Positions 26,801-63,823 of a stretch of DNA of 64,000 nucleotides are shown one piece after another (within the stretch, counting starts at the first letter, position 1; every line of letters begins with the position of its first letter). The stretch comes from Parietichytrium sp. I65-24A (lineage: Eukaryota > Sar > Bigyra > Thraustochytrida > Thraustochytriidae): positions 992,001 to 1,056,000 of the forward strand of contig BLSF01000001.1 of assembly GCA_012862575.1 (NCBI GenBank), given 5' to 3'. The translations under genes were made by a program, and so were the position numbers. Under the pieces are notes generated by a model that saw only the letters and a program-made list of their open reading frames with translations, searched no databases and was not told where the DNA came from.

Positions 26801-27541
26801 AGGCAGCTTGTTGGGCACGCCTTCCTGTGTCATGAGAGTGGACGCCATGTACGAGATGCTCGACGTCATTGCGCTGATATGGCACACTCGAAGTTGCCCA
26901 GGGAAGTGCGAGCAGTTGTACTTGAATTCCTTGACAACCTCGTTAACGTGTGACTCTTCCAGGTGCGATTCCCCGCTCGAAGGCGGTTTCGTAACCTGCC
27001 GCGCCCGTCCTTCGAGGACACCCTTTGAACCAAGATCTGCAGACAGATGAGAAGGCTGTTGCCAGTTCACGTCACTCCCCATGGCGAATTCCGCAGCCTG
27101 TCGGGCTGCCTGTCGACTATCAAACTCATCGTGACGGCTCAGGTCAGCTCTTGCTTGTGCTTGTAGCGCTAACTCGTACGCGCTCACACACTCTCGAATC
27201 GCCTTCGTCGCGAGTGGTATGCGGAGCAATGCGTTGACGGGCTTACACTTGCGCCGATTCCTCGGGAGCTTGTTATACTGAAGGAGCAAGTCCACATCCA
27301 CGTTGAACAGGCTCGCGATGACGTTGAAAGAGTACTCTCTCTGCACTAAAATTAGAACTGACTCGAAGGTTTCATGCAGCGGTTGCAAGACGCGGATTTT
27401 CGTAGGCTTCCGATTATCATCTGGCCGCCTCCGCTTTCCGGCAGGAAAGTAGTCTTTGACGCTGGCCCCCTCCCTCGCCGCCCTCGCCGGGGGCCTTGTT
27501 GGCCCGGAGTGGCCGGTCCGCGTGGATTGCGATGCTTTCAT
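23803..27541 (-). CDS. AlkB-family Fe(II)/2-oxoglutarate dioxygenase with N-terminal LysM-like domain, two exons (1,220 aa)
   Basis: The model joins 27541-24285 to 24208-23803 on the minus strand. AlkB enzymes oxidatively remove alkyl groups from nucleic acid bases. The catalytic domain is at the C-terminus: NRTKMFFNARYLWTKEQ, then iron ligands His1076 and Asp1078 in GQHYDDTERF on exon 1; the second His (about 1136, KVKHC) and the 2-oxoglutarate Arg region (RSGVLILR, about 1146-1153) lie on exon 2. The segment around LFSDSRLAFG resembles the ALKBH9/10 and related groups. Near the N-terminus, residues 61-110 look like a LysM domain (FNVIASLFNVDVDLLLQYNK, then LLRIPL). Residues 25-32 (GASVKDYF) followed by GKRRRP resemble a weak PCNA-binding PIP box plus a nuclear signal. 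The middle is long and mostly unassigned. The ATG is chosen over an in-frame TTG four codons earlier. Substrate (DNA or RNA) is open. Confidence 0.82.
24209..24284 (-). other. Intron in the AlkB-family gene
   Basis: A 76-base intron on the minus strand with donor GTAAGT and acceptor ending CATCAG, phase 2. It joins FKHP to ITSLRLFSDSRLAFG. The second iron-binding His and the 2-oxoglutarate Arg are encoded after it, so an unspliced product would be inactive. Confidence 0.88.
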
Positions 27542-36914: not shown

Positions 36915-38711
36915 TTAGAAATCAAACACAAGAACGTAGCGCAAGCGGTGCTGGGACTCTTTGTAAATGAGGTATTCATCCTGCGAAAAGCTGGACGACA
37001 CGCCCGTTTGGGAGACGTCTCCGGCTGGGACGATCACCTTCATGCCGTCAATCTCGAGCTCCACGTCCTTTTTGCCGACCGGGCTCTGCTGGCCTCTTGC
37101 AACGACGGAGTTGTAGCCTTTCGGAGCTGATTTGAGTGACGAGTTGTCCCTGGTGATCTCGTACTCCTTTCCGAGCGCAGCTTCTGCAAGAAACATGACT
37201 GCCTTGTTCTTGCCCTTCCACCTGCTAGAGCTCGTGTAACCGAGGGATTTGTTGTGCTCACTGGCCAAATAGATACCGCGGCCAACGCGGCCTCCCGAGT
37301 GAGGCATGATGCGAAGTCCTCCCCGGAGAATGGCAGCTACAACAGCCACATTCGTCCCGTGCCACAGCAGCTTGTGATTACCAATGCTCTTGTGCTCTGC
37401 AAATCGCTTCTCCTCGCCGTTTCTGGCAACCTCGAACACCTTGTCCAGCTTGAAATTCCGCCAGCTATGGCCCAGACTGTTGCTCTTCATCATGTACTCC
37501 CGGATCAGCTTGACGGTGTCGGAGCTATCCTGGCACCGCTCCAATTTAATCTGCAAAGTGTCAAACTGAGCGTCCAGAGGGTGCAAGTCGACCTTTTCAT
37601 CTCCTTCGGACTTGAGCACCTGGGCCTCCTCAATGTCGGAGACCACTGCGACGAGATCATACTTTCTCTGTAGCATCTCCAGAGTGCTGATTGGTGGTGG
37701 GGCAACTCGCCCGGTCGCGTGAGGGAAGCGAGTGTAAAACTTGCCGCTCAGCTCGCGAATCACGTTTGACCGACTTCTTCCCTTGAGCTCCTCCTCCAGC
37801 TCTTGCAGGACCTCGTAAGCTTTCTTCACTTGGTCTTTGGACAAGGCTCCGAGCGGCATCCGATCCACGTCGATTCCCATCGTGTGCATGGATTCTTTGA
37901 ACATATCAGCGCTGAAGATCATCTCCACGAAGTCTTTGACGTCCTTCTCTAGCTTACAGTCCGGGATTGCGCTCTTCGCCGTTGTCTTCTTTGTCTCGGT
38001 CTTCACAGTGGTCTTTGGGGTGTGGTCCATTTCCAGGAGCTCGTACTTGTTGTTGTACTTGACAAAGTTGTGGCGGTTGGCCCAAAGGTTCTTGGTCTTG
38101 TCCTGGAACTTCTTCTCAAACTCTTTCACAGCGCCATCCAGTGTTGTGTACTTGAGAGCATCTTTGCCGTCTTCTCCAACTCGGTTCCACCGCGTGTAGC
38201 ACGCGTGGGATCCGGTCGGGCACCGCACGACATAGATGTGGTATGCCTTGTTGTTGTTGCTTCCGAGGTTGCACTGATTGAGAACCACGCCATACTCGCC
38301 AACCACGACGGTTCCGCTCGGAACCTTCCGCTCAAGCACATAGTCCAGAGGGATCGTCCCGTCTGAGATCACGGCGCCCGCAGCCTCTGACTTGACAACC
38401 TCTTCCCCTTCAGGCTCCTTCTTCACCTTCTTGGCAGCGGGAGCCTTCTTGGCAGCTGGACCCTTCTTGGCGGCTGGAGCCTTCTTGGCGGCTGGAGCCT
38501 TCTTGGCAGCTGGAGCCTTCTTGGCAGCTGGAGCCTTCTTGGCAGCGGGAGCCTTCTTAGCGGTTTTTGGCGCTGGCTCTTCCGCTCCTGCGGCAGCAGC
38601 CCCTCGCGTTCTCTTCCTAGTCACAGGCGCAGCTTCCACGGCTGGCGCGTCTTCCACCTTCACTTTGGCAGCCGCTGCTGCGCTCCTTGTCTTCCTCTTG
38701 GCCACCAACAT
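36915..38711 (-). CDS. Poly(ADP-ribose) polymerase, PARP2/3-like, with histone H1-like tail (598 aa)
   Basis: PARPs use NAD+ to build poly(ADP-ribose) on chromatin proteins after DNA breaks. Order: a basic N-terminal tail (1-105) with seven PAAKK repeats spaced six residues apart, like histone H1; a WGR domain (about 115-230) in which the name motif reads WNRVG (about 175-179); the helical regulatory domain (about 250-375, including DVKDFVEMIFSADMFKE and PLGALSKDQVKKAYEVL); and the catalytic domain (about 380-598). The H-Y-E triad is present: LLWHGT, GRGIYLAS and QDEYLIYKESQ. It should therefore make polymers. There are no zinc fingers or BRCT, as in PARP2. Start ATG at 38711. The basic tail probably binds DNA and acts as a nuclear signal. 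Confidence 0.95.
   Translation of the reverse strand: MLVAKRKTRSAAAAAKVKVEDAPAVEAAPVTRKRTRGAAAAGAEEPAPKTAKKAPAAKKAPAAKKAPAAKKAPAAKKAPAAKKGPAAKKAPAAKKVKKEPEGEEVVKSEAAGAVISDGTIPLDYVLERKVPSGTVVVGEYGVVLNQCNLGSNNNKAYHIYVVRCPTGSHACYTRWNRVGEDGKDALKYTTLDGAVKEFEKKFQDKTKNLWANRHNFVKYNNKYELLEMDHTPKTTVKTETKKTTAKSAIPDCKLEKDVKDFVEMIFSADMFKESMHTMGIDVDRMPLGALSKDQVKKAYEVLQELEEELKGRSRSNVIRELSGKFYTRFPHATGRVAPPPISTLEMLQRKYDLVAVVSDIEEAQVLKSEGDEKVDLHPLDAQFDTLQIKLERCQDSSDTVKLIREYMMKSNSLGHSWRNFKLDKVFEVARNGEEKRFAEHKSIGNHKLLWHGTNVAVVAAILRGGLRIMPHSGGRVGRGIYLASEHNKSLGYTSSSRWKGKNKAVMFLAEAALGKEYEITRDNSSLKSAPKGYNSVVARGQQSPVGKKDVELEIDGMKVIVPAGDVSQTGVSSSFSQDEYLIYKESQHRLRYVLVFDF
38439..38568. repeat. 18-nt coding repeat in the PARP tail
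   Basis: Tandem 18-base units encoding PAAKKA on the minus strand. On the plus strand they read ttcttggcagctggagcc with small changes. Such arrays vary in number easily, so strains may differ. Confidence 0.9.
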
Positions 38712-39503
38712 CTTCGTCCTTTGCTTCTCTTGCTCGCTTGGATCTCTCTGTCTCTTTCTCTTTCTCTCTTTGCTTGTCTACTTTCTTCTTTTGGGGTCTG
38801 CACTTGGCTCGCTCATCCTCGTTTGCAATCTTGTGTTGCGAGAGCTAAGTCCGCGAAATGCGTAGAGCGCGGACCGAGGGATCCGTGGTGAGTAGCACTC
38901 AGCCACGTGCGGCGCTAGTAGTCGAGCAGGGCAGAAGAGATGAGGTGTGCGAGTACCGGCGGCCAGACGGTTGATTAAGAGTGCGCGTTGGTTGCTTGCG
39001 AGTTTCCCAGACAAGAAGACTACAAGGAGTTCTGAGTGGTGTACTGACTCGGTGTACATCTTCTATACTTGGAGTGTTAAGATTCACTGTCGTGAAAGAT
39101 TTGCAGTTGCAGACTGACCGACAAGCGACAAGCGAGTATGCGTATATGCTGGCTCTTTCACCTGATTGCATTAATTTAAACGTCTTTTTGTTCAAAGGTG
39201 GCGCTGACCTGGAACTTATGTTGCTAATTCGAACTCGCAGAATGATTGACTTTCCTGTACCGGTACTGTTATGCGTGCAGTCGGCCCGGATACGGATACT
39301 CCAGACGGTACTCACTGTCAGTACACGTAAAAAGAGCCACTGCGGAGTGAAGCGTGGCCTGGATAGTGCTAGTGCGGGCAACTCATTGCGCGTTTCGCAA
39401 GAATTAATATTCATTGTGTTCGCGAGCAAAGGAACGCGGCATTGTTCGTCACAAAGGCAGACATCAGACAAGGAAAAGGATGAAGTTGAAAAAAAAAGTT
39501 CTA
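38712..39503. other. Intergenic region between M16 protease and PARP
   Basis: Both flanking genes are on the minus strand, so this holds the PARP promoter and the protease 3' end. It contains GTACCGGTAC at 39257-39266 and CACTGTCAGTA at 39313-39323. No gene seen. Confidence 0.4.
39257..39266. promoter_or_regulatory. Recurring palindrome GTACCGGTAC, copy 4
   Basis: Perfect copy, 46 bp before a near-perfect copy of the second motif (39313-39323). Confidence 0.35.
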
Positions 39504-42500
39504 TTACATCAGAGTGCATTGGGAAGGCTGTTCATCTGTGACACATTCGTTGGAGACGCAAGTGGATTTATTGTACATGCTCTCAGAGTCAACCAGCGTC
39601 ACGTACTTGCGTCGCGCGGAGAGCTCCTTGACCGCGTCCTTCTTGAATGAAGTCCCAAATACCAACACGGAGACGCGTCGTCGCTCCTCGGAACTCGGGT
39701 TCAGCCATCGGTCATATGCTGCGAGAAGCTTTTCGAGAGAGATCCAGTTTCGCAAGCCCTCAATCTCGTCCAGACTCGACTTCCACTCGAACGACGGCGG
39801 GACTCGGTACCGACACAGAGATATCGACTCCCACATGGACTCTGCCTCTTGCTTGATACTGATGCCCGAGTCGATCTTCTTCCTAGCGATCGCGCAAGCA
39901 TTCTCGTGAAACGTGCGTGGGTCGACCCTTGCGAGGGTGGCACGAAACTGGGCAAGAAACCGGTCAACTATCGCCGCCATCTCGTGTGGAGCATGCGTGC
40001 TCGATGTGACCTCGATGAGAAACCCGAGCATTCCGAGCACGCTGTTCGTGGAGCACTGCACAATGTAGCCCACCTGCTGTCTAGATCGCAGCTCCGTATA
40101 CAGCGGCTCGCTCATCAGATGCTCGATGGTTTCCGCAAGCAGCCGATTATGGAGGGTGTCAGGCCCCAACTGAAAGTAAAGATCCACAGAATGTCCTTCG
40201 AACTCCAGTGCCTCCAGTGGGTGAACAAGCCCCGTCACGGCGTGCCAAGGGTCTCCAAGGTCGGAATTCACCTTGCTCATCGGAACCTGCAGGATATTGA
40301 GCCGAGGGATCAATTGGTCAGAAAGTTGAACGCTTTGCAGACTGTCCAAATGTCCGCGAAGCATTCCGATGACCCGTTTGGCCTGCTCAATTTCAGTGTT
40401 GCCACACAATAGAGCTTCTACGTTACACCTTCGCAACAACAGCGCGGCGTAATCGGCAACGTCTGCTCCAGACGAAATCATGTACGTCGCCTCTGCAAGC
40501 GCTTCTGGATGCCACGAGCCGTTTACTAGAATTTGGTACAGTGCGGAGGAGAGCTGGCCCTCCGTTTGGAAATGTGATGCGTCATTTCCATACTGCTGCG
40601 AAAGTACTTCCAGCTGCGCAGAAAATGCTCTCTCATTCAGACCGAGGAGCTCTTCCGTGGCCGCGCTGCCCTTTTTCTCAGGTAAGCTCTCGACGCCATC
40701 AGGTTGATCGCTTAATCCACTCTTCTTCTTCTTCTTTTTCTTCTTCTCCGAGCTTGAAACTCTCCGCATCTCCTCGGGCTCTGTCGGCTTCATCATGACG
40801 TGATCCTTGCCCGCCTTACTGCGCAACGTATCTACAGACCCAAATCGCTTCGACCCACGGGCCAGCCGCACAAGCGCCCCGAAGACCTCGTCAAGAAACA
40901 TCGGAAGCTTCTCGCTAAACCCCGAAACGTGAAGGGTCAAACCCTCCTCCTCAGATTCCACCTCCAAGTCCAGCCCTGCCAACGATGCGAGGTAAGACTG
41001 GTGGATAAGAGCTTCGGACAACAGAGCCGCCATAAAGTCATTCAAAGCAGAAAAAATTGGGAGCAGGGTCGGCAGGGGTGAGAGAATTCGAACATAGCAC
41101 TCTGTGCGTGGCACCTGATTTACCTTATCGGGCATGAACCACAATTTCAAGTGGTCGTTTGACCCTGGCGTCAAAGCTGGGATGCTAAACTCAAATGGGT
41201 CCTTGGTTGATTCCGGAAAACTTTCCCAAATCTCCTCGTGCTCCTGCACGCTCAGCCCATCCCTCACGGCAGCAGCTTCATTCACCCGAGCGCTCTCCGC
41301 GGCGGCGTTGTTTCGGCCGGTGCGCTTGAGGGCACGGAGTAGTCTGCTCATCTTACTCGGCAGCAGTGCTTTCCTCGGGCCTTTCCTAGTCTTCATGGAC
41401 GACGTTAGCTTATTACTCCCACTAAAAAGAGTTTCAGCCGCGCTTCTCGACTTGCGAGTTCCTGGAGGAAGCGACGGATTACCTGCTGCTTGATCTAACC
41501 CATCCAAGCTGGCGGCAGCCCCCTCTAAAAGGCGAACCTTCAGGCCGTTGTCCACCCTGATTGTCGAAGTCCCAGAGATGGATCGCGACGCCCGAGCCAC
41601 TACAGTGTGGCTCTGAGGGAGGATCTCGTGCCATCGAAACAGGCCATGTCCGTACCCTATGAGCAGACGATTTAGCTTCAAATCATGTTCCACAATGTGA
41701 CCATCCAACCATGTCGGTTTGCTCTGCTTGACCGACGTCTGCAAGTACTCATTCAGAGCATGCTTATGGCCAAAGAAGGAGTCCATGACGAGGTCTTGCT
41801 TTGCAAACGCAAAGTTCGAGTACGTCTTAAAGTGCTGCACAACCACATGACGCCCGATAACTGAGCCTCTTGCTGCGTCGCCCTCAGAGTCGCCCTCGCC
41901 AGACGACGACGACGACGAAGACGACGAGCCAGTCGAGGTGCTAGAGTGAAGAGCAAAGCTCGTGGGAATGTACGGATTTCGAGGCGGTAAGCTCAACAGC
42001 GACTTGCCAGACTTTCGGGTGTGTGGAGCCGTCTGGTTCTCCACGCAACTGAGAGAAAGGGATCCGTCCAAGAGACTGTTCCACAGCGGCATTGACTCGC
42101 TCACACGATGGCACCAAAACGGAGTGTCTGTGTACGGCTCGACGTCGTGCCTCGCCCCAACAAAGGGCTCAAAGATGGAGAGCATGGATCTCTTCACGAC
42201 TGATGTTTGGCCGGACCAGAACGCACTGCTACGGAGATCCAACCGTGCCAGCTCTGGTCTCAGATGATTCAACACTTCGTCCACCAGCTCAGGCTCCCAC
42301 TCGACGTACGAGAACGGGTCCAGCAGCCATTTGCTGTCCAGCTTCCATTGCGGCAACATCTTGACGCTCAGATCCGTTGCATAGTCGACATAATCCTCCT
42401 CCTCTTTGAATCTGTACTTCATTTGCTCAATGCTCTTGTTCTCCTCGTAGATCCACTTTTGCGGCTTGGTTCTCCTAAGCAATCCAATATACTCGTAAAC

Positions 42501-44291
42501 GAGTCCTATGACCATCTCCCAGGCAAAGAGGCCTTGCGAGGTCAACTGAATGTCCACCATGAAGAGCGAGTTGGCGCTGGTTCCCTCAAAGTTCCCCGCC
42601 ATGGACGAGCAGCTCGCTCCGAGAGCCGTTGCCCACCCCCTGGACTTGAGCTGCGCAAGAACTGACCCCGAGCTTTCGTGCCCGAGGAGATTTCCGATGT
42701 ACTCGCACCCATAATATCTAAAGTTATCTTTCTGCGGAGGCAACTGCCAGGTGATCACAAGCTTGTGTACGTTGGAAACGGGCGGAACCACAAACAAACA
42801 ACCCAACGCGACACCATCCTGGCCTACATGGTTCGGCCTTGTGCAACCCTCTTCTTCGCTGGGAAGGTCCGGCTCGAGCATTTTGGGCCAAATACCAGCT
42901 TTCGCCATTTTTTCCGCCATGGCACGATCCCCTATTCGCCAAGGCGCTCCATACTCAGTAATCAAAGGACTAACTACCCCCTCATGACCAGGGGCGCTTC
43001 CGTCGCTAATATCCTGAAAGAGGTCGACCACAATCTCCTCCAAAGAGTCAAGGGATTCGTACCCCACAACCACTAGTCTCAAGTTTGGAGCAATATAATA
43101 CTTGTGATGAAACTTGCGCAATTCTTTGTAAATGTCCACTTTAGCCTTCTCCGGGTCGTGTTTGAGCGTTTGCTCGTTGCCACAACAAAATTTTGCGAAC
43201 GGTGTCTGCCGTCTCGCTGTGTATCGCCAAATTTCAAACAATCGGCAATCGTCCACATTTTGGCGAAGGGCGAACTCGGATTCAATTGATTGAAGCTCGC
43301 GATCCGCTGCATCTTTCAGAAGCAAAGGCGAAATAAAAAACTGTGCAAATATGTCCAAAGCCTTGTGCAAGTCTTTCTGAAAGCACGAAAAGTAGTATAC
43401 AGTCCGCTCAGAGTCTGTGTAGGCGTTGCTGCTTCCTCCGTTTTGACTCATAAACATATCAAACTCGTTTTCACGAGGGTATTTTTCACTGCCCATGAAG
43501 AGCATATGCTCAAGAAAGTGCGCCAAACCTTGGCACGAATCCGGTTCGTGGAAAGAGCCACACCCCACGGCCATGGACACAGCCGCTATTCTATTCGACG
43601 ACATTCGCTCGTCCACATCAAAAGTCGCCTCCGCAGCTCCGTTCTGCATGTCTTCATCCAGCTTCAAGCTAATGCTTCTCGGTAGGACCACTCCCGCCGT
43701 ATCGGCGCCCGTTTCCAGGCTCGGCTCGAACTCTTGCTCGGCATCACGAAGATCGGGCATAGACCTAACTCCCCCGCCAACTTCCACGAGCCGCCTGTGC
43801 TCCGACTTTCGAGTCCCCGCGCTTGCTGCCGGGCCAAGGCTCATCCCAGACACGCTTGCGAACCCATTCAACGAAGCTGGTCTGCTGAGGTCCCGGGAGG
43901 AGTGCTTGTGCCCCAGACCTAAAGTCTGCGCCTTTCCCGGCGTCTGATGCGCCTGCGTCGAGGGTTGTCCGCTGTGCTGGTGCTGGCTGTGAGCATGGTT
44001 CTGTTTCTGACTCTGTGTCGGGTTCTGGCTCGGGTTTTGATTCGTGCTTTGCTTAGTCTTGGCGATGGCGCTGGACAGCGGCCGTTCCCCAACGTGCGAC
44101 TTACTGGTGCTCGTACTGGTTGTGCTGTGCCGAGAGTCGCGCTTCTTGGCAAGACGCTGTGGTGGAGCCTGACGGCCCTTTTGGCTGTGCACATTCTCGG
44201 CTGAAACGAGCAGACACTCCAAACCATTCCTGAGCTGTACACGGCGGTACCGCTTTCGGTCATTCGCACTGCGCGTGCGGTCCACCTCCAT
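39504..44291 (-). CDS. M16 metallopeptidase, insulysin/nardilysin type, with long insertions (1,595 aa)
   Basis: M16A proteases are zinc enzymes that trap and cut peptides in a clam-shell chamber. The first ATG (44291) gives MEVDRTRSANDRKRYRRVQL and the usual strand RNGLECLLVSAEN. Before the second strand lies an insertion of about 195 Ser/Gln/His-rich and acidic residues (about 34-230). The active site is intact: HFLEH at 258-262 and the third ligand Glu339 in RELQSIESEF, 81 residues later, the same spacing as in human IDE. A C-terminal M16 half has LRSRQQVGYIV, matching the substrate-binding Arg and Tyr of IDE. Further insertions are Ser/Glu-rich (STGSSSSSSSSSGEGDSEGD) and Lys-rich. Human IDE has about 1,019 residues; the excess here is mostly these inserts. 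An acidic insert near the zinc site is a nardilysin trait. The open frame extends 61 codons upstream without an ATG. Confidence 0.92.
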   Translation of the reverse strand: MEVDRTRSANDRKRYRRVQLRNGLECLLVSAENVHSQKGRQAPPQRLAKKRDSRHSTTSTSTSKSHVGERPLSSAIAKTKQSTNQNPSQNPTQSQKQNHAHSQHQHSGQPSTQAHQTPGKAQTLGLGHKHSSRDLSRPASLNGFASVSGMSLGPAASAGTRKSEHRRLVEVGGGVRSMPDLRDAEQEFEPSLETGADTAGVVLPRSISLKLDEDMQNGAAEATFDVDERMSSNRIAAVSMAVGCGSFHEPDSCQGLAHFLEHMLFMGSEKYPRENEFDMFMSQNGGSSNAYTDSERTVYYFSCFQKDLHKALDIFAQFFISPLLLKDAADRELQSIESEFALRQNVDDCRLFEIWRYTARRQTPFAKFCCGNEQTLKHDPEKAKVDIYKELRKFHHKYYIAPNLRLVVVGYESLDSLEEIVVDLFQDISDGSAPGHEGVVSPLITEYGAPWRIGDRAMAEKMAKAGIWPKMLEPDLPSEEEGCTRPNHVGQDGVALGCLFVVPPVSNVHKLVITWQLPPQKDNFRYYGCEYIGNLLGHESSGSVLAQLKSRGWATALGASCSSMAGNFEGTSANSLFMVDIQLTSQGLFAWEMVIGLVYEYIGLLRRTKPQKWIYEENKSIEQMKYRFKEEEDYVDYATDLSVKMLPQWKLDSKWLLDPFSYVEWEPELVDEVLNHLRPELARLDLRSSAFWSGQTSVVKRSMLSIFEPFVGARHDVEPYTDTPFWCHRVSESMPLWNSLLDGSLSLSCVENQTAPHTRKSGKSLLSLPPRNPYIPTSFALHSSTSTGSSSSSSSSSGEGDSEGDAARGSVIGRHVVVQHFKTYSNFAFAKQDLVMDSFFGHKHALNEYLQTSVKQSKPTWLDGHIVEHDLKLNRLLIGYGHGLFRWHEILPQSHTVVARASRSISGTSTIRVDNGLKVRLLEGAAASLDGLDQAAGNPSLPPGTRKSRSAAETLFSGSNKLTSSMKTRKGPRKALLPSKMSRLLRALKRTGRNNAAAESARVNEAAAVRDGLSVQEHEEIWESFPESTKDPFEFSIPALTPGSNDHLKLWFMPDKVNQVPRTECYVRILSPLPTLLPIFSALNDFMAALLSEALIHQSYLASLAGLDLEVESEEEGLTLHVSGFSEKLPMFLDEVFGALVRLARGSKRFGSVDTLRSKAGKDHVMMKPTEPEEMRRVSSSEKKKKKKKKSGLSDQPDGVESLPEKKGSAATEELLGLNERAFSAQLEVLSQQYGNDASHFQTEGQLSSALYQILVNGSWHPEALAEATYMISSGADVADYAALLLRRCNVEALLCGNTEIEQAKRVIGMLRGHLDSLQSVQLSDQLIPRLNILQVPMSKVNSDLGDPWHAVTGLVHPLEALEFEGHSVDLYFQLGPDTLHNRLLAETIEHLMSEPLYTELRSRQQVGYIVQCSTNSVLGMLGFLIEVTSSTHAPHEMAAIVDRFLAQFRATLARVDPRTFHENACAIARKKIDSGISIKQEAESMWESISLCRYRVPPSFEWKSSLDEIEGLRNWISLEKLLAAYDRWLNPSSEERRRVSVLVFGTSFKKDAVKELSARRKYVTLVDSESMYNKSTCVSNECVTDEQPSQCTLM

Positions 44292-44692
44292 CGCCCTTCG
44301 ACCTTCGACGAGGTGCAGAGCGTATGGAGCTACAGGAATGTGCACAGGCGAATGAACCTGTGCGTTTAGGAACTCCTCCTCGTGGCCTCTCCGCGTGGCT
44401 CTGACCAACGTGTGCCTAAAGATTATGTCTCTGCTTCTGACACCCACCTGTTCATCCAAACTCCCAATTCCCAATGTATCACGATGGTACTCTGTGCTCG
44501 ATTACACAACTCGTCTCCTCTGCTCCAGCTTTGAAAAGGGTGTGCTGTCAGCCGGACTTTCCTTGCTTTACACGTCCAGCTTTACGGAACGACAATATTC
44601 ACACTGGGACTTTTTTAATCCCAACCCAAAGTTCCGAATTTCCCCGAGAGTGCGAGCGCGCGCCGAGTATGTTCCCAAGGCAATGACGAACA

Positions 44693-50200: not shown

Positions 50201-53200
50201 TTAGATTTCGAGGTCATCGTCGCTCCAACCCCCCTTGCTCTTAGCGCTCTGATCTCCATCGCTTAGATGACCCGAGTTTTGGGTGAGATTGAGGCTTTCG
50301 TCGCCTTCCCAGCCGTCCAAGTTGCCATCTTCATTCGCATGAGAGAGCGAAGGCTTCGAGTCCGCCAAGGGCTCCTCACTCTCGATGAATCCATCGAATC
50401 CTTCAGTTTGTTCTGCACCTGCATCGTGGTCTACCACAAGAGACTGTGCTTGCTCGAACGCTGGGACAGATGTCTCCCCGACAGCATCAATCTCGTTCTC
50501 GGTAAAGCTGAGGCCGCCATCGCTATTCCATCCATCTTGAGCAGAAGACTCATCTTCGTGTTCGTAAATTCCCGGACTTAAAGCTCCAGAACTGTGCAAC
50601 ACCTCGTCCGCAACAGATGCCGAACTCAGAGTCGAAAGCTGAGCCCCCCTTGTTTCAGAGTCTGGACTGCCTTCGGTATGGCCCTGTCGAACAAGAGGAG
50701 AAGCCCGGGCCCTCTCCGCCAGCTCATCTGACTCTTGGGCAGACTCGCCTGCTTCCGCTTGAAACGTGAATCTCTGACCGGTCTCATCGCGATCAGGTTC
50801 GTGAGCAGACTCCCCAACGTGCTGCGAAGCTGCTGCAAGTGACATGCCTTCCCGTGAATCTGTTTCAGAGCTGGGCTGTAGATTATGAAATTCGCGTGGG
50901 TGCTCTCCTGCAGGTCCTTGGTCCTGGCCTTCGAGTTCGTGTTCGTCGGCTCCTTCTCGCCTGTCATTTGCGTGCTGGCCGTGATCCAAGCTCTCTTCGG
51001 CGCCCTTCTCTTCATTTACATTAAACTCGTCAACCTCAAGATCGTCGTCCTCCCAACCGGCACCAAGCTCGCTCGAAGCTGTCGGCGAGCCCTGGAGCTG
51101 TGCCCCATGAAACTCCGCACCCTCCTCTTGCGAATCACCACCTGCTTGGTCCGGGATAGCGCGACCGAGCGCATCTCTAGCGTCCCAATTAAACGTCGGC
51201 TCACTACCTGGCTCCCCTTGTGCTTGACTTTGTAACTGAGGGTCCAAGAAAGCTGAAGGCTCATGAAACTGGACCCCAGCTTCATCTCCAACCGTGTTGG
51301 AGCTTGCATGAAGAGAACCTAAGCTCTCTGCCAAACCTTCGTGGAGTACAGGGTTCTGTTCGAGATATTCAGAAGCAGCGGCATTGTACGCTGGAAGAGT
51401 GGCGTCTTCGTCTCCGATACTTCCTATTTGATGAGATGAATTACCTTCCTCGCGCACCGCGGAAGGCTTTTCGGCGCCTTCTTCGACCGCATCGCCCCGG
51501 GCTTGATTTTCGCTCAGAAGCTGCCTGGCAGATGCGAAATGATTTGTACCAAGTGAACTTTCTTCAACAGCGTTCGGAGAAGACTGCATGAGCTCCCCAC
51601 CAGCCTGCGCCCCTGTACCTACTCCATGACCATCACTCTGATTTCCTTCACCAGCCGTCGCGGAGGCAGAGTACTCCGAGTCCCTCGGCGGCAACATGCA
51701 GGCAGTATCTGTCTCGTCCGGTACATCTTCCTCGAGGGCGCCAGCATCGTCCCAGCCTGAGACATGGTCAATGTCCTCGTACTCGTCAACACCTTCGGCT
51801 ACCGTCACATCTCGATTTTGAGTAGCTCTTGGGCCGGAGTCGGCCCCATCGGCCACAGGATGGGCAGCTTCGTATGCGTCAAGCTCATCCAAGCCATCGT
51901 TTGCCCACTCTTCCGCAGCGTCACCCTCGTCGATTCCGTTGTCCTCCCAGCCTTGACCCTCATCGACCTCGTCAGGCAAGTCTTTCGGCTCTGAAGGAAG
52001 GCCACCTTCGTCCAATTCATCGCTTTCCCAGCCCCCTCCTTCTACTTGCTCGTCAAAGTCGTGGTCAACCTCATCAAGGGCCACAGAATCGGCTATAACG
52101 TCCACCTCATGTTCAGAATTTATGTTGTTTCCTACCTCGCCTGCCACAGTGGTATATTGTGCACCTGCATCTGTTTCGACATAGGTTCCATCATCCAAGT
52201 CACCAGCTTCCCAGCCCTCCGGTTCGCCCAGCGCTTGGCCCTCACCTGCAGTCGCAGCGTCGGAGCGTTCGGGGGAATATAATGTTTCATTGTTCTCAAA
52301 ACCGTCTAGTTCTTCGCTGCCAGCCCAGCCATCATGTCCTGTGAGCTGGGCTAAATTGCTGGCTGCAGAAGCCTCTGTTTCGTCCAGGCCATCATCTTCC
52401 CACCCCTCAGCTTCGCTCCCCTCTTGAACGTCGGAGGTCATGGTACCAGGTTTGGACTCGCCGGCAGCCCCTGGAGGGTCGCCGTGTTCAGCAGAATGCG
52501 CTTGATCGTTAATTGTAACGCTGCCAAGATCATCCTCATCCCCCCAGCCGTCGCCGGCCGTGGGATCCACCTCAGTATCGTTTGCAGGTGCCTTCGATTC
52601 TATCCGGCCATAGGTCTCCCACTCCTCAACTTCGTTCAATCCCAGGTCATCTTCGTCCCAGACGGATTGGCCTTCGACAGTGTCAATCTGATTGTTACCA
52701 AGTCTCTCGCTCCCTTTCCAGCCATCTCCGGTGGATGGAGACTTGTTGGGACTATCAAAGGCGGCGTTCGCAATGTGCTCAGACGAATCGTGTACAGGGA
52801 CCTCTGCTGAGTCTATGCCGTCATTTTCCCAGCTTTCAACCTCGCTCAATCCTTGCTCGTCTTCACGCAAGGTGCCCGAGTTAGCGTGAGCTTTCGTGGC
52901 AATGTCGTTTTCACCAAGCTCATTGCCACCTTCAGCAGGCGGAACCTCGACAATATCTTCAGAAAGGCTGTCATCTCCCCAGCCCTCAAAATCGTCCGAT
53001 TTCTGGGAGTCTTCGTTGATTATATCTGGTGAAGCGGGGCGTTCGGAAGGACAGGCTTGGTGAGCATCAAGTGCATCTTGTCCAACCGTGGTGTCAAACA
53101 CGTCGGGTTGATCGATATCCACACAGTCCTCCTCAGCGAAATGTTGGGCATCAGCTTCACGCTCTGGAAACTTTGGCTCATCCAGATTGTCGTTCTCCCA

Positions 53201-56060
53201 TCCAGTTGCTTCGGGCGACTCCTGAGCTCCGCCGCTCACCTCATCGCTCAAACCGTGGTCCTCCCAGCCCTCAGCGTCACTTGACCTTTCGTGGACTGCA
53301 TCGGTGGGAACATGGCCATCCTTTTCTGCTGTGTCCGTTGTCTTGATATCACCGAGCTCATCACTGCCCCTCCAGCCATCTTCTGCGGGAGGTTGGGCTG
53401 GGATGCACGCATCATGCTCAGATAGCCCCGGTTTCTTCACGCCTCCAGCTTCCTCTGGGGCCAAACTGTATTGATCCAAAGTGTTTGAAGTAGTCGAAAA
53501 TTCGGCAGCGTCTGTCAGCCCACTATTTGACTTGAGATCCACATCATTTCCGCCGTCCCAAGCATTTTCCGCCGTGGCTTGAATTTCGCTTCCGACGTTT
53601 GAAATTGCTGCGTCGTTCGCATCATCATCCTCTGAAGTAGCGTTCAACTTTTGAGCACTTCCATCCGCCGAATTTTCGTTTATTGCTTCTGTGGACTGTG
53701 TCTCGTGGCCGTCCTCGGGAACTGGGGATTGGCCAAGACTATCGTCTTCCCATCCGACGTCAGAATTATTCCCCCGGTCTCCTCCATCTAAAGGATCTGG
53801 CGCAATTTGTTGTTCTACTGGAACGCTATGATCCATGTCGCTGGGTTCATTCTCCTCCGTCGTACTCTGAGCACTGAGGTGAGACTCAGCATCCAGGCTG
53901 TGGTTCTCCCATCCCCCACCAACATTCATTTCAAGCGGTACACCCAGAGCTTCCACAGCTGAACTTTCAGCAGCCGATTCGTCGCCATGATCATCATCGG
54001 CCCCCCAGCCGTCTTCTGCGGTGCGATCAAGTGCCTTGCTTACATCGAAGCCTGACATGTCACCCAAGTCCTCATTTTCCGAACCCTTGGCTCCCTTCTG
54101 CCCCTCATCCGACTCTATAAAAGTAACTCGAGCGCCATCATTGTCCTCGGCAAACTCTTTCGGGTTTTCATCAGCAACGTTGTCATCGACTCCGGGACCG
54201 TCTCTGAATACAGGCGAGGCGGAGTCATCGATGAGCGGCCTTTCGACGTGCTTCAGCCCATCTTCGTTCCAACCTTCAGTTTGATTTGGTGTCACATGAC
54301 CTTCCTCAGCTGCTCCAGACGCATCATCACCATTAAAGCCATCTTTTGCAACGGACTGAGCATCAGAATTTGCTTCGGGAAATATGTGATCATCCAAACC
54401 ATCGCTCCCCCATCCTTCGTCCTCCTTATTGTCCTGATCGCCGCGTTCTGCTTCGTTGAAAGCAATTGAATCTCCAACGGTTGAACTCTCAACATGCGCC
54501 TCATCACCAAGGCCGCGACTGGCCTCCCAACCATGTTCTGCTGTGTGCCCAGTAGAAACGTTCGCAATAGGATTCGACGGCAGCGCCTCCACACCGGCGC
54601 TTTCTAGATCTTCAACTTCCGTCTGACCCTGGTCGTCTTTAACAACAGCGATTGGAAGGTCCTTGCCCTCGGAAAGCTCTTCCTGTTTACCGACTTCAAA
54701 ACCAGTGTCGACTCCCCATCCATCGCCAGATGTCAAATTGCTTGCTTCGCCCACTCCATTGTTTTCAGCTTCAGTGGGTCCAACATTACCAATCTCTGGC
54801 TCGACATAAAGGCTATTGTCACCCCCACCGGGCTCTTCTCCGTCTCGCCAGCCATCTTCCGTGTTATTCTGATCAGGAGAGCCGACCTCGAATTGGAGGC
54901 CATCGTCTACCACATCTCCATCTTCCATCAACTTCTGGTCGCCGTTGTTCATCTCATTCGATGCGCTAAGACCTTCAGCCGTAGAGCTCTCAACGACGAC
55001 GTCATCGTCAAGGTCGTCGTCAGTGTTTTCCCAACCATCTTGCGCAGTGCGATCAATGGCGAGGTTTCCATTGATACCAGATATCTCATCGATGCCATCG
55101 TTTTCCCAACCTTCGGGTCCAACTTGGCCCTCGCCAGTTTCGACAGAAGTGACTATACCATCATTTCTGTCCTCGGTTGATTCTTTCGAGTTGCCGTCGA
55201 TAATATCGTCGTCTATTCCCCAGCCATCGTTGGGATCGGGCAACGCCAAACCTCCATTCTTCAGACCCTCTGCTTTGTCCATCTCGTCATTAACCCAGCC
55301 TTCGCCGCTCCCCGGTTGTCTTTGCTCGTGCTTATCGACAGGGTCAACTCCGCTGTCGCCATCGAGGCTTCCAATTTCGAAGTCCTGGCCCCAATCATCT
55401 TGTGCGACAGGTTGACCACTCACACCGACTTCGGAATCTGCTGATTCGCCAATACTGACGCTCTTTCTTTCCTCAGCATCGTCAGCACCGTCTTGGGCCG
55501 CATTCTCAGCCAAAGCCGCTGAAGGTTCTGAAACATCGGCGAGATCATCCAAAGCATCATCATCCCAACCCTCAGATGGGCCTACGTTGCCGTTCTGATG
55601 TAGGGGCGTTTCTGAGATATGCGAATCAGTTTCCGAACGAGCACTAGTCTCATCAAACTGCACATCCTCTTGCACAACAGGTAGAGGGGAGCTTGACGAT
55701 GGAAAATCGGATGATTCGAAGTTGAGATCTTCGTCCTCCCAATTTGACGCGATGGAGTCTTGCGGCTTGCTTATTGCTTCGAGATGAGCTGACGACGTTC
55801 GGCGATCCTCAAAAGACATCTCCTCTACCACTTCCTCAATGTGCAAGTTCCGGTTCAACGTGGAGTTGGGAGAAGCCGTCAGCCCCCCATCATCGTCATC
55901 GGTGTGATAGCCCCTGGCCTCCGATGTTGCCACGACGTTTGCCCCTGCTCCACTTGCAGCAAAAGATGAGCTGCTTGGCTCAACAGTTGCTTCTTCATCA
56001 AGAACACCAAGGTCATCGTCGACGTCCCACCCTGTGGACGAGCCATCCCGTCGGGAGCTG
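50201..56060 (-). repeat. About 40 degenerate Trp-acidic motif repeats in the NBAS tail
   Basis: Encoded repeats of the form (E/D)GW-x-x-D-x-L-(D/G)-(E/D), spaced about 50 residues. Examples: EGWDDDALDD, DGWGIDDDI, EGWENDGIDE, DGWRGSDELGD, EGWEDHGLSDE, GGWESDELDE, and the last residues GGWSDDDLEI. Nearly every Trp in the tail lies in such a motif. The DNA units have diverged well, so this is an old expansion and not an assembly artefact. Confidence 0.9.
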
Positions 56061-59000
56061 GAAGAAGTGGGACTTTTGTGGATTTCTCCATTGTCTTCAA
56101 TTTGAGAGATCGTCGATGGAATTCTTTTCAGCAGATCATCGCAAGGAAGCTCAGGGCTCCAGTCCTGGTTGACGGCGTTTGGCGAGTGTAGGGGAACGTC
56201 CCCTTGCCCACTCCAGCTGTCCCAGTCCTTCTCTTGAGACGGAAAAGATCTCGCCGAATCTGACGGCGCCGTCCGCAGCGATGCTGTAGGCGGGGTCTGT
56301 AGTTTGCTTAGCGCTACTTGAGCTAGTTCCACACACGACGCCCAACCACTTCCCTGGCGAGATTCCTGAGCACTGCTGAGAATTGATGCCTTGAGTAAAG
56401 AAGACCAAGACGAACCTCTTCCGAGAATTGGATGCAGGCGGTGAAGCTTTTGATTAACATAGTCTGCGTCAAGGAGTTTGTGCTCAGCAACAAGAACCAA
56501 GATCAGATACGAAGGACTCCAGCAGAATGGGTAATCTCCTGAGTCGACCGAGATACTAGTTTCCACAAGGTTTTGTTTGAAAAGGGGAGGGAGTCTGCAC
56601 CATACGGCACCAATGTCAACGGCTGAGAGGAGCAGCAAGTAAAGCTCGGGGTCATGATTTGATATTGGAACTGCCGTGGCAGTGTAATCCCGAACTTGAG
56701 AGTAGCACGAGAATAGCCCAAATTTCAAGGCACGCTGCGCCAAATCTTTGCTCTCGAGCTCTTTCGTGAGCGCCATTTCAGCTTCCAAAGAAAGAAGGAC
56801 CACTTCAGCCGTGTAGCGAATTCCAAGGAACTGATCTCCCTCAACGGAGGCGTCCTCGCAAAGAATGGCATGAAAAAGATTCCTCCACTCTTCCTGAAAC
56901 GAAGAAACACTAAGCGATGACTCGCGCTCGCTCGAGCCCTCGAGATGTAGCCTTTGTCCAAGGAAGCTATCTTGGGCGTATAAGGCGTGCGCTCGAACTT
57001 CTTCGGAGAAATCCACGTTGAACAAGTGCCCCCCAACACCTTCCCACAAACAAAGTACTTTGGCAAGCCCAATTCTGCTACCTGATGGTGGCAAGCCGAT
57101 TCGTTCAAGTAACGCTTTTCGCTCATCAAAATTCGACATTTTGCTCGGAGACACCATTTTGGCGATGTCTTTGCCCCAGTACGTCTCTATCAGCTCGATT
57201 GCAATCAGATCCTGTTCAAGACATTCATCGCCAGCCTGATCGAGTCCGGAAGTGCGGATAGCACGCAGTGCAGCAACTTTGATTTCATTTGATATTTGTC
57301 CGTGCGCTGCTTCCCGAAGTGCCTGTAGCATGTCCTCACCAACAGCTCTTTCAGATTGGCTATCAATCATAATAGATATTTTGGAGGTGAGGCTCGGAAG
57401 TCGAGTGCTGTACAGCTCCTCGTCGCGGAGAACATCACCAAGTACATCCATGTAAATCTGGCGAGGGTCAAACACCACCTCTGGAGTTGAAAAGGATGGC
57501 GCCAAGGTATTGCAAACTTGAAAGACCAGGTCCACGTCGACATGTGGGGCGTCTGCAAGCAAGCGAAGCACGCGGCAAATTGCTTCCGGTTCACCTTCCG
57601 TCGACTCAAAGTCATTCAGGATGTCGGTCAAGGTGGCATCGATCTCCAAGTTCTGGAACAGAAATGACACCGTCTCAACAAACGCTGCTGCTTTGTCGTG
57701 CTCCAGGAGCAGGTCTTCCGAGGTGTCAGAAGATTTTGTGATAACGGCCCGGCAGAGATTTACGATTTTTGACCTGAGATCAATCTCTAGCAACCGTCGA
57801 CTGCCTCCGCAGAATGCTGCGCTCTGGGCAAGCTGGACCGCATCCTGTGCTTTCAAATTGGGGATCAAAGGCTCCACTTGAGCTGCAAAAAGCTGACGAC
57901 TGGCCCTTGCCACGGACCGCGGAATATCAGTCAAGCATTTCGGTCTCCCGTCAGTAGCAGGGCTTACGACTTCACTCTCCGATGCAAATTTGAGCTTCAA
58001 AGTATACAGAAGTGAGTCTAGTAATAACTGGCTCGGGCGTATCTTTGGCTCCACATCGCACTGCTTGGCAACGACCTTTGCAACTGAAATAGCATTGTCC
58101 TTGTTCATATGACGAACGACTTCCAAAATTGCGTCTTGAACATCAAGCTCGCCGCAATGAGACACTCCGGCCGGGAACACAGAAACCACTTCCTCTTGCA
58201 ATACTCCAGAAAACTCATCATGTGAGGCACTCTCGAGTGCGAGATGCCAAGGGTTCCTAAGCAGCTTTTTGGCGTCCATGTGGAGACCGATCTTTTCCAG
58301 TCGAAGAAGAAATTTTCGCCGTTCCTTGAATGCCTCAAACATACTCTTTGACTCAGCGGAGTTTTGCAGCGCTTTCTTCAGCACCTCCGAGAGAAGCTTC
58401 TCAACGAGCATTAATCGACGGTAATTGCTTCCTGCCAAATCATATCCCCAGGTACTGACACTAAGCTTCACAACAAGTCTCGCAAGAACATGGAGATCGT
58501 CACTCTCCAACAAATTTCGTGTCAACGGGCAATTGCGAACGACGAATGGATCTAACTCGTTCTCGGTCATCAGTTTAGAATCAGAAGAAATGACCCCGGA
58601 CAGATAGGCGATGTATACATCAGGCAAATAAACTTGGTGCTCCGCCGCGGCGTCAACGACTCCTTGCCAACGTGTATCGCCCTCGAGATTCCGTTCCATT
58701 CGATCTCCGAGCTCGTGGGCTGCGGAACAGAGCACTTGCTGACGATAATCCGAGTCGACTCCGAATTTGGCTACATCGAGGTGCGGGAACACCTGCTGAA
58801 GCTTTTGGCCCTGAAACAAAGCAGCGCTTTCCTCGGCCACCTTATCAAGAAATGGAGAAAGGGTTGAGTTAAGCGGTACTGCTCCTGACGCTTGGGCTGC
58901 CGAGAGAACTCTCAACAGGGCGGACGCCGAGAGCGACAGCACATCGACGTCTGATGTGTCGGAGGTTGATGCAAAGAAGAGAGCGAAAGCTTGTATCATA

Positions 59001-62000
59001 ACGTGCAGAACTTGAGAGTGCTGCTGCTGCTCTTTCTCTTTGTGTTGTAATTCCTCGAGCAATTTGTGATAGCCGGTCTGCAGAAGCTGATGCGAAGCTT
59101 CGTCGGGGCTGGCAAGGACGTCCGCGATGAGAAGAGCAGCCACATCAGGGTTACTAAGAGATTCCGCAAGCGCCCAGGACACAGTTTCATCAGCGCTGAT
59201 GATGCCTTTTCGGGCCTTTGCTCGCATTGACCAAAGATCAACGTCCAGTACTCTGGCACCAATATCAGGCTCTGCTCGCTTGGAGTTGTAATTCGCATTT
59301 TGAACAAATGAAAGACTTTCTGGCAAATCAAAAGCGGCACAGTGAATGAGGCTTAGCTCCGCAAATTTCTCCACGTCTTTGCCACCCGATTTCTCTATCG
59401 CTTCTGCCAACAAAAGGCAAGCATGACCGGTGTGCTCCTCAGCATCTCGCAATTGCACTCTCTTCTCGCTGGGTAGCGAGTTTTTGCTTTGCGAAAGGAT
59501 GTCCATCTTTTCCACCATGCTCTCGCAAATTGTTCTCGCAATGTCAAAATCGCTTTTCAGAATCGCGCTTTTTACAACATTTAAGCGAACTCGAGCAATG
59601 GAGCCGATCCCCTGAATCCCGATGAGGGACGCTAAACGAAGGATTTTCGCATCGGGCTTCGCGTTGGCATTGATTGTATCAGACTTGTGGAAGCCTATCT
59701 TGTAGGCATCAGACTGACTCTCCAGCAAATGCTCCACGAGGCGTATTGGCGAATCTGATTTCATGTACAAGCGGACCTGCAATGGAACCATAGGAAAGTG
59801 AAACTCGTTCGCAAGCATGTCCACCACCTCAATTAAATTGCGTTCTTCCTGAACACGCGAGGAGGAGAACGGCAGCGCGCGAAGTGTCCGCTTCGCATAA
59901 TCCATTTCCCGGAAGGCGAAGTCATTAGCGCTGTTGAAGAACTCCTTCGAGATAGCCAACACGATTCCTTCAATCTGTTGGCGACTCAACACTGCGTCTG
60001 GGTCGTCCACGTCGATCACACTGATGATTTCGTGCGCCAGGTCAAATTGAGCGGCGCGGAGCAAGTATATAAGAGTGTATTTAGTACAAAACCTGTCCGA
60101 AAGAAACCCAAACGCCTTGTACTTCATTTCCCAGACCAAATGAATAATTTCTTCCCAGAATGCTTGCTTCAACCCCTGCTCAGAGTTTCGCGATGTTGCG
60201 TTTGGACGGCTCTCGTGATTTCCCGAGTTCGCGCTTGTCTTGAACCATTCTGCAGCGTCCACCCCTAAGGCTCGTTGAAGTACAGCGAGTACGAGACCTT
60301 TGCCTTTGTCTTCCCGCCTCCCGCTTCCGGGCACAGCTTCAAGAAGAACAGAGTCACCGCTGCTAATTCCAGTTGGCTCAGTGGCTGCAAGCGAAGCATC
60401 GTCGTCTTCGCCACTAGCTTCGCTCTCCATGTGGAAACTTAGTGCAGGATCCGCTCTTCCAAGCACGAGGTCATCCGCGATGGTTTCTACATTGGGAACA
60501 TGCTTGCGCTTTTTCATCGATGCGAGCTTCTTTTGCTCGTATTCTTTGCAGCACTCGATAAATGTCTGCATTGGTACAGCCAAGTTCAGACGCGCGAGCT
60601 CCGAATTCACGGTCAGGTGGCCGTCAAGGACCTCAACTCGATCTTGAAGCAGAGCGAGAGCTTTTAACTTGCTTTCCAGGTGTGGAATTCTTGCCGGAAG
60701 AGACTCAAAAATTCTGTCCATCGCAGCCAAGGAGGGTTTGGTGGCCGATGGGCAACTGTATATGCATGCCAAGGAAATTTCAATCAAAGCTTGCGGCATT
60801 GGAATGATTCGCTGACTCGTTTCCAAACCTTGGGGTCGACTTTGGTGGATAATTTCGGCGCAGAACTGTATTCCTTCTTCCGCTTTTTCTAGATTCCATT
60901 CCTCCTCTGACAACGCGTCGTCGAGAATATCATCCAAGGAGGATTCCAGTGGGTCAATAATGCCACGCGCTTTAGACACCATGAGATATCTCAGGTTAGC
61001 AATCCACTGGACCGTCGATTCCTCACTGTCGTAAAGAGGTATCAATCGGTTGGAAAGCACCTTGACAGCATTATCAGCGTTGAGATCTTGAGCGAGCACG
61101 CACATCTGTTCAAAATCCGTCATTTGTTCCCACACACAAAGCTGAATAGCATCGCTCAGTCCGCAACGATAGATTAAGCGGGACAAAGAGGCGGCGGAGC
61201 TTCGAAGATGTTCCAGATCTCGCAACGATTCGCACAAGGTACCGAACGCACTGTCATCTGGCGGAGCAGGCCCATCAACGAGAGAGAGAGGACTCACCAG
61301 TCTGAACTTTGCGCATTCCAACAACTCGAGCGAGGCGTCAAGCTGACCACTCAATTGATCAATGGCTCTGGCTCTGCCATGGTACCAGGTGATGATACGT
61401 TGCGCTGAAAAGGTTTTATCTAACTTTGTGTGGTCACAAAAGGTACCATCCCAGGTGACCTGTTCACCTGCCTCAGAAGAGCAGAGCGCCAACAGAGGAA
61501 CAGCTTCTCCTTGTGACAAAACATGATATGAGAAATGCTCAGAGCTCTGAGCAATAGCGGGCGGTGATGCGGGCAAGATTTTCTCGTACTTTAGCGGGGA
61601 GAACGTTTCTGGTATGATTTCTAACAGCTCCAGGACACACGGCTCAAGCTCAAATGGAAAGTGCAGCAAGGCGGATTCGAGGCCCGTGAAGTTGCCGGAT
61701 GCTGCAAAATCAGTAGCCAAAGAGCGAGGATCAGATGTTCGAAAGCCGGCGAACTCAAACGCGTCAAATTTGGCTTGTTCAGCGAGACCTCTTCTACTCG
61801 CCATATAAACGTCAAGCTTGGCTTGGAGGGCCTCAAGCTGGCCCCTGACCCATCTTTCCCCTTTGGCATGCTGGCTCGCTCGCTTAGTACCGAGGTTTAT
61901 TAGAGCTCGCGTAGTCTCCTCAGACATTGCAACGTGGGTTAAACACTCGTTCACCACCCAGTTTGAGTCCTTTACTTTGGCGAGGTACAACTCTACAGTA

Positions 62001-63823
62001 TCGTTGTTGGCCGGGCTAGCAAGCCACTGAGCTTTGAGGATTGGCTCATCGTCTAGTCCAGAACCTTTGGCAAGGTCGTGTGCCTTGCTAAATTCTCCAC
62101 GATCAATCAAGTTTTCTAACAAGGAGGATGGCGACGCGTCATGTACCGCACGCAGGTTATATTTGCGAAGTAGTTTTTTGTTTCCCAAGACCACACAGCT
62201 TGTCGCAGTTGACGCAACCGCAGATGACGAGACATCAATCCACGAATGTCTGCAATCCAAGATAAACACTTTATGGTCAACATTTGTCTGTGGCGATGCG
62301 CCTGCCGAAAGATCATCGTCAGAGTTCAATGTAGCTGCCAAAGTTACAGGCCAGGAGAATGTTGGCAACCCAAATTCAGCGGACACGATTGAAGACTCCA
62401 AGTCCAAAACATGCGGCGCATCTTGACCCAACACACTGCTCACAATAACCCGGCCACCCTCTAGAGATACGGCGATTGCATCTTGAGACCACCAATCCAC
62501 ATCGAATATTTCGCATGAATCGTCATGACAAACAACTGAGTTGCCAAGGTCGGTGGGGATTTGCTGTTCATGCTCTCCTTCGGCACGAACTTGCAACCCA
62601 GAATGCGACACGGTCAATGCGCCGGACCATGTCAATGTCGCAATAAATTTGTATCCTGGGGACAGGGAAACTTTTTTAATTCTCGCAAGCTTGGGGATCG
62701 CAGATTCGCCATCGCTCAAGACCCAGCTGCTGCGCTTTGAAACCTCGTGTCCCGCAGGCATACGAAGAGGGACAGTCCGAAGAGTTTCGTAGAAAGGCTC
62801 CTGTTCTCCCAGCCGAACCATTATCAAGGCCTGATCGCAGCACAAGTACAACACGTCACTGCATGAGCTATGGGGTGATGCTTGCTGGAAATCGTTGCTC
62901 ACGGCATCGCTACTAAAATAAAAACATTTTCCAGAACTCCAATGCGATGGTCGCAGAGCGATAGCTGTAGCTTGAACTGAATTGGCTGCGCGCAGTTTGC
63001 AACTTAGAGGCGAATCTTTATGCCCGTAGCTCGGTGCCTCCACTGTCACACCACCGCTCTCCCCGAACGACACTGCAAGGCGGAGGATTGAACCCGTTTG
63101 GTACACAATCACGAGTTCTGAGGAGTGCGAAGCACTGACATGGTTGGGCGAGCGAAAGTGTAGTCCTACCACAGCCCCTCGGTTAGTCTCGGCATAAATA
63201 TGTTCCGCATGCGCCGTGGTCAACGCCCCGTTGCGATGAAGAGTGCAGACTACCACCCCATGAGCAGTGGCCACCGCTAAAAGCTTCTCCTTTGAATCCC
63301 ACGCCGCACATCCTGCGCCAACCCAAAGATGCTCGCTTGCTGTCGCTTCCTTCTGAAAGATTTTTTGCCTCGTTTGGCTTTTTATACAACACAGAAATGC
63401 CTGGCCACCTTGGGAATCAAAGACCGCGCAAAGCTTGCCCGATGGCGATGGAGCTAGTCGCCACACAATCTTTTCGATGGCAAAGTGATCTTCCTGGCCT
63501 CCCAAGAATGCTTGTTTAAGTTGAGCCAGACACGAATCTGCTTTGAGACCTTCTACAGGAATCTTCAGCTCTTGGGACGCCTTCGCAGCAAATTGAGCAT
63601 CTGCATCATCACTCCTTTCATGAAACAATTTCCCGCCGCAGTCCGGGAACCAGCTCTTCTCCAGCGGCTCGACCGCGCAACTGCATTACCACCAAGCCAT
63701 CGAGATCCAGCCAATAATCATTCACAAAAACATGTTAGATGTGCAAGAACATAAGGAAACCCTTCCTCCGTATCTTGCAAAACGGTCTCCTCGCCCCTGT
63801 GTAACTCACTAAGCTTTTGCCAT
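50201..63823 (-). CDS. NBAS/Sec39 orthologue with giant Trp-acidic tail, two exons (about 4,497 aa)
   Basis: NBAS (yeast Sec39) is part of the ER tethering complex with ZW10/Dsl1 and RINT1/Tip20 that receives COPI vesicles from the Golgi. The N-terminus (about 25-520) is a WD40-like propeller, with IVWRLAPSPSGKLCAVFDS aligning to human NBAS. The Sec39 region begins near residue 525 (ENLIDRGEFSKAHDLAKGSG and LAKVKDSNWVVNECL, again as in NBAS). The core ends near residue 2,480, close to the human length of 2,371. An acidic tail of about 2,000 residues follows with some 40 motifs such as EGWEDDGLDE. The large frame has no ATG near its start; I propose a 14-base first exon (63823-63810, ATG GCA AAA GCT TA) spliced at a GTGAGT to 63680, which keeps the frame. 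Coding identity is firm, the first exon tentative. Confidence 0.9.
63681..63809 (-). other. Proposed first intron of the NBAS gene
   Basis: Donor GTGAGT right after a 14-base exon, acceptor ending ATGCAG, 129 bases, phase 2. Joining gives MAKAYCAVEPLEKSW, which leads into the open frame. An in-frame TAA lies inside the intron, so some splice or other start is needed. Confidence 0.5.

Follow-up and report, generated by a model that had tools for sequence, protein, structure and literature searches.

A predicted NBAS/Sec39-family tether subunit of Parietichytrium with about forty acidic tryptophan motifs: a possible coat-binding lasso

The DNA analyzed here is a stretch of 64,000 nucleotides from the thraustochytrid Parietichytrium sp. 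I65-24A (contig BLSF01000001.1, forward-strand positions 992,001 to 1,056,000), referred to as the window. It harbors a gene of the NBAS/Sec39 family, the product of which continues beyond the family core into a long acidic tail. All positions given for this gene lie on the minus strand. Core and tail are contained together in one frame of 4494 codons (50201–63685), which shows 0 stops along its entire length and thus bears out the single-frame arrangement described in an earlier note made from the sequence. No in-frame ATG is seen near the start of this frame. The gene model places the start codon at 63823 within a proposed first coding exon (ATGGCAAAAGCTTA; 63810–63823), whose splice to 63680 restores the frame. 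The proposed intron of 129 nt (63681–63809) is of the GT-AG type, reading GTGAGT...ATGCAG, and the copine gene of the window has a similar one. Across this junction the predicted spliced product is in frame and begins MAKAYCAVEPLEKSW..., and the second exon (50201–63680) comprises the remainder of the core, the tail, and the stop codon as one stop-free frame. The predicted protein consists of 4497 amino acids and is complete within the window.

The core of ~2475 residues contains a Sec39 domain (residues 1187–1391; 59513–60127) that matches the Pfam family PF08314 with an E-value of 2.2e-19 over profile positions 457–654 of 753. The match reaches 69.9 bits where the cut-off is 22, and a search with the sub-region gives an E-value of 3.3e-21. 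The putative start of an alpha-solenoid is found at residues 526–612 (61850–62110), where the first ARM domain of KNTC1 (PF24520) is matched weakly (E-value 1.7e-5; 25.2 bits, below the cut-off of 27.3). ROD/KNTC1 is a kinetochore protein and a paralogue of NBAS; this identity was rejected, with Sec39 far over its cut-off, the KNTC1 ARM domain under its own, and Rod_C unmatched. The strand-rich N-terminal region (residues ~70–430; 62396–63478) is expected to form a beta-propeller. An AlphaFold2 model of the N terminus, calculated without relatives, shows strands at residues 70–430 and mostly helices past residue 500, at a very low confidence (mean predicted local distance difference test score of 33) that makes it a hint only. 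Pfam Nbas_N finds no match in this region, and a Pertussis_S2S3 match at the N terminus (E-value 0.063, below the cut-off) is taken as chance.

In position, the strand-rich region agrees with residues 1–420 of human NAG (PMC4206994). Human NAG/NBAS consists of 2371 amino acids with a Sec39-like domain at 734–1355, and the Nicotiana protein of 2409 (PMC4206994); the core is hence of family-typical length, as had been noted earlier. The Sec39 domain is common to human NBAS/NAG, plant MIP2, and yeast Sec39, whereas the core length is that of the human and plant proteins only, and yeast Sec39 lacks the propeller. These matches support the assignment of the protein as the NBAS/Sec39 subunit of the Dsl1/NRZ tether resident at the endoplasmic reticulum (ER), the identity that the earlier note had proposed. 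No solved structure matches the whole protein by sequence, and no relatives are found in viral and prokaryotic contig collections (two queries each).

The tail covers residues 2476–4494 (50204–56260) and amounts to 2019 residues of acidic low-complexity sequence, of which 25% are Asp or Glu, 11% Gly, 10% Ser, and 0.2% Cys. It carries a net charge of approximately −423, or −0.21 per residue, and is regarded as disordered on the grounds of its composition only. The 41 Trp residues (the earlier count was about 40 in some 2,000 residues) are evenly distributed, with a median spacing of 44 residues and 2–6 Trp per 202 residues. Human and Nicotiana NBAS, at the lengths given above, leave no space for an extension of 2000 residues, which agrees with the earlier statement that human NBAS has no such tail (PMC4206994). 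The tail frame encodes a real protein: it has 0 stops compared with 43–171 in the five other frames, the best codon score of all frames, and a codon usage resembling that of the core and the neighboring genes. That the tail might lie outside mature NBAS, as a separate downstream gene, through an alternative 3′ end, or by an assembly fusion, is very improbable. One donor-like GTGAGT at 55423 within the tail would fit such a separation. Opposed to this are the absence of any stop codon between core and tail, the lack of an in-frame ATG ahead of the first Trp motifs (the first Met of the tail is located near residue 2625), the near absence of strong donor sites, and the shared codon usage.

Almost all Trp residues of the tail follow one rule, namely W-x(4,5)-hydrophobic. 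Leu, Ile, Met, Val, or Phe is found at exactly +5 or +6 in 36 of the 41 copies compared with 12 expected, corresponding to a P-value of 8e-15 that is nominal, as the motif copies are partly related. When copies with similar flanks are removed, the rule is kept in 30 of 34. Two spacing classes exist, +5 with 20 copies and +6 with 16 copies, and their alternation along the tail is not significant (20 runs compared with 18.8 expected). At positions +1 to +4, hydrophobic residues are avoided (6 copies compared with 20 expected). Gly precedes the Trp in 30 of the 41 copies, and an acidic residue occupies −2 in 25 and +3 in 25; on average, a 14-residue window around the Trp contains 4.7 acidic residues. 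Compared with shuffled tails, [DE]GW occurs 20 times rather than 1.2 (at most 6 among 2000 shuffles), W-x4-[LI] 19 times rather than 3.3, and GWxx[DSGE]x[LI][DEGSN] 11 times rather than 0.09. The rule is not seen for the other anchor residues tested in the tail, for the Trp residues of the core, or in the other large open reading frames of the window. The earlier note had given the motif as (E/D)GWxxDxLDE; the motif as such is real, but this strict form is too narrow, since even the relaxed pattern [DE]GW..[DSGE].[LI][DEG] fits only 5 copies. A motif peptide with Leu at +5 is exemplified by EAEGWEDDGLDETEAS. The densest cluster, at 51880–52045, contains GGWESDELDE, QGWEDNGIDE, and EEWANDGLDE (Trp 3886, 3913, and 3927), and the last motif, GGWSDDDLEI (Trp 4487; 50204–50233), forms the extreme C terminus directly before the stop codon.

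The tail contains one ancient duplicated block. Copy 1 (residues 2814–2915; 54941–55246) carries three Trp motifs; in copy 2 (residues 3156–3256; 53918–54220), two of the three Trp have changed, to Pro and Ser. The local score between the copies is 217 compared with a null mean of 64 and a null maximum of 98. Synonymous differences are saturated (pS 0.73), whereas nonsynonymous differences are limited (pN 0.30). The block is thus an old duplication preserved as protein, and the combination of synonymous saturation with constraint at the protein level marks the tail as a selected protein as opposed to a recent DNA repeat. Consistent with this, the tandem-repeat search finds no sizeable array of DNA repeats within the tail, the top row there being a two-copy 15-mer, and a recent satellite expansion is therefore rejected. 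Sequence identity among the motif copies exceeds background only at −2 to +7, and the synonymous codons used for the motif residues are mixed, which argues that the motif is kept by selection and not by recent duplication. Taken as a whole, the array looks old and selected, with redundant parts.

The genes around the NBAS gene are eukaryotic in character and include a copine, an AP-3 delta, a PARP, and a large M16 peptidase gene. The copine gene (17902–19997, plus strand) encodes C2 domains and a copine domain and is interrupted by a single short intron, GTAAGT...AG, which illustrates what introns look like in this organism. AP-3 delta adaptin is encoded in a single frame (20551–23691, plus strand), the best PDB matches of which are AP-3 delta subunits with E-values down to 5e-163. 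The PARP (36915–38777, minus strand) has WGR, regulatory, and catalytic domains. In the insulinase-type M16 peptidase of 1665 residues (39504–44501, minus strand), the domains are widely separated, suggesting long insertions. Two further open frames, of 2794 residues (1426–9810, plus strand) and of 1120 residues (24281–27643, minus strand), have, respectively, no Pfam match below an E-value of 1 and no Pfam match at all. Scans of the window for tRNA genes and Rfam families give no matches, and ZW10 is not among its genes.

Several classes of protein that read Trp motifs come into question as partners of the tail. The tail could bind a folded domain such as a clathrin-adaptor ear (AP-1 gamma, GGA, or AP-2) or another mu-homology or appendage domain (gamma-COP or AP mu). 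Adaptor ears likewise read acidic-aromatic motifs, and the AP-3 delta gene of the window implies that adaptor coats are present in the organism. However, the ear motifs WxxF, FxDxF, DPF/DPW/NPF, and GAE-like [DE][DES]Fxx[FLI] all occur 0 times in the tail, the spacing from Trp to the aliphatic residue is +5/+6 and not +3, and NBAS acts at the ER, where the arriving coat is COPI. Such a partner is hence distinctly improbable, and the AP-1 gamma ear and GGA, which the earlier note had offered as alternatives, fare worse than the COPI subunits. An arm resembling autophagy receptors, in which the Trp motifs would serve as LC3/Atg8-interacting region (LIR) motifs, has in its favor that Trp with acidic flanks is typical of LIRs and that the NRZ complex is linked to autophagy (PMC4206994). 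Nevertheless, the LIR core W-x-x-[LIV] is found 0 times in the tail compared with 5.5 expected, which makes this reading extremely improbable.

Unlikely, albeit deserving more weight, is a multivalent ligand for a partner outside the coats, for example, the nonsense-mediated mRNA decay factor UPF1, a cytoskeletal adaptor (kinesin light chain), or Argonaute through a GW hook. UPF1 comes into consideration as a partner since, in nonsense-mediated mRNA decay, it is brought to the ER by NBAS (PMC7397857). GW dipeptides, holding 30 of the 41 Trp, speak for a hook, and they exceed the expected 4.6, while WG occurs 7 times compared with 4.7 expected. The Argonaute hook, as in GW182, requires spaced Trp only; it would not predict the strict aliphatic residue at +5/+6 and leaves this rule unexplained. 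The W-acidic core of kinesin light chain ligands, [DE]W[DE], occurs 2 times compared with 2.6 expected, and we know of no UPF1 motif of the form W-x(4,5)-aliphatic.

The tail might also act without any specific pocket, its Trp serving as stickers and its acidic sequence as spacer, in self-association or condensation of the tether or in keeping vesicles at a distance. The length and low complexity of the tail, its charge per residue, and the even spacing of the Trp are what such a design would show. The fixed distance between Trp and aliphatic residue, the avoidance of hydrophobic residues in between, and the conserved Gly at −1 favor a bound conformation instead, and strong like charge opposes self-association, so that a sticker-and-spacer tail is improbable.

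The reading preferred here, that of a multivalent coat-binding lasso on NBAS with COPI as the most likely partner, follows the interpretation of the earlier note, which is partly supported, and stands at about even chances. It draws on resemblance to known ligands and on the cellular context, since the tether to which NBAS belongs is the one that takes in COPI vesicles arriving at the ER from the Golgi (PMC7397857). In yeast, Dsl1 contacts delta- and alpha-COP by way of the Trp motifs in its acidic lasso, as the earlier note had correctly stated (PMC4868844). The Parietichytrium tail similarly is an acidic, Trp-bearing, and presumably disordered putative ligand region on an ER tether subunit for COPI vesicles. 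The yeast lasso, however, forms an internal loop, has only a few WxW-type motifs, and binds a partner that is proven, whereas the tail is located at the C terminus, bears about 40 motifs, has an aliphatic second anchor, and belongs to the Sec39/NBAS homologue and not to Dsl1/ZW10. Known COPI ligands are Trp-based and lie in highly acidic disordered stretches, where they follow the delta-COP di-Trp rule W-x(1-6)-[WF] (PMC11441981; PMC7145657; ELM class LIG_deltaCOP1_diTrp_1). The tail shares this setting, as far as disorder can be judged from composition, and the spacing of its motif falls inside the rule. Like the tail, the delta-COP ligands ArfGAP1/Gcs1 and insect FAM114A have a Trp within acidic disordered sequence and, separated from it by 1–6 residues, another hydrophobic anchor. 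In these ligands, W or F takes the place of the second anchor (WxxF in Gcs1, WDDW in FAM114A), whereas in the tail it is L, I, V, M, or F, with 4–5 residues in between; furthermore, the ligands contain one or few copies compared with about 40.

Several observations weigh against a COPI-binding lasso. W-x(1-6)-[WF] occurs 4 times in the tail compared with 8.5 ± 2.5 in shuffles, and the tail is therefore not assigned to the delta-COP di-Trp class, its motif having L/I/V/M where the rule needs W/F. The literature search found no published COPI ligand of the exact form W-x(4,5)-aliphatic, and the motif profile has no match among solved structures. Moreover, the loss of two Trp in copy 2 of the duplicated block indicates that single motif sites are dispensable. 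With the delta-COP, LIR, ear, and kinesin motifs all failing, two options are left: the partner of this lineage has a second pocket that tolerates Leu, or another partner is involved.

If the coat-binding reading holds, the C-terminal arm would present ~36–41 weak docking motifs of the type (D/E)-G-W-(polar/acidic)4-5-(L/I/V/M/F), placed ~44 residues apart. The Trp and the aliphatic residue at +5/+6 of each motif would enter a pair of pockets on a folded coat subunit, most probably either alpha-COP or the mu-homology domain of delta-COP, by analogy with the Dsl1 and ArfGAP1 motifs. Numerous weak sites on one arm would enable the tether to capture coated vesicles and retain them through avidity, and the arm might perhaps assist in coat stripping. 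COPI ligands bind with low-micromolar affinity (PMC6737914), a range where repetition of a motif makes a difference. In this lineage, NBAS would thereby take on the capture of coats that in yeast is the task of the Dsl1 lasso. More tentatively, the lineage may have assigned coat-catching to NBAS and amplified it some forty times by means of a new motif with two anchors, W-x(4,5)-aliphatic, yielding a high-avidity arm of ~2000 residues with room for many coat subunits at a time. Whereas the joined frame, the motif rule, and the constraint on the duplicated block are shown, a COPI partner, avidity, and a relocation of function are plausible inferences.

The idea of a lasso on NBAS is attractive because plants, animals, and aquatic fungi are reported to have Dsl1 homologues without the acidic lasso (PMC4868844), and ZW10 likewise has no acidic region, with the question of how it then works stated as open (PMC4206994). 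For mammals, UVRAG has been proposed as a bridge (PMC4868844), and the partners of the C-terminal extension of NAG have been called for (PMC4206994). How tethers other than those of the yeasts recognize COPI vesicles is thus an open question in the literature (PMC4206994; PMC4868844). If the proposed function is true, a tether subunit with about forty motifs close to those of COPI ligands would be a natural, highly multivalent test case for this question, and it would predict that COPI ligands obey a less strict rule for the second anchor, one with which other proteins could be searched.

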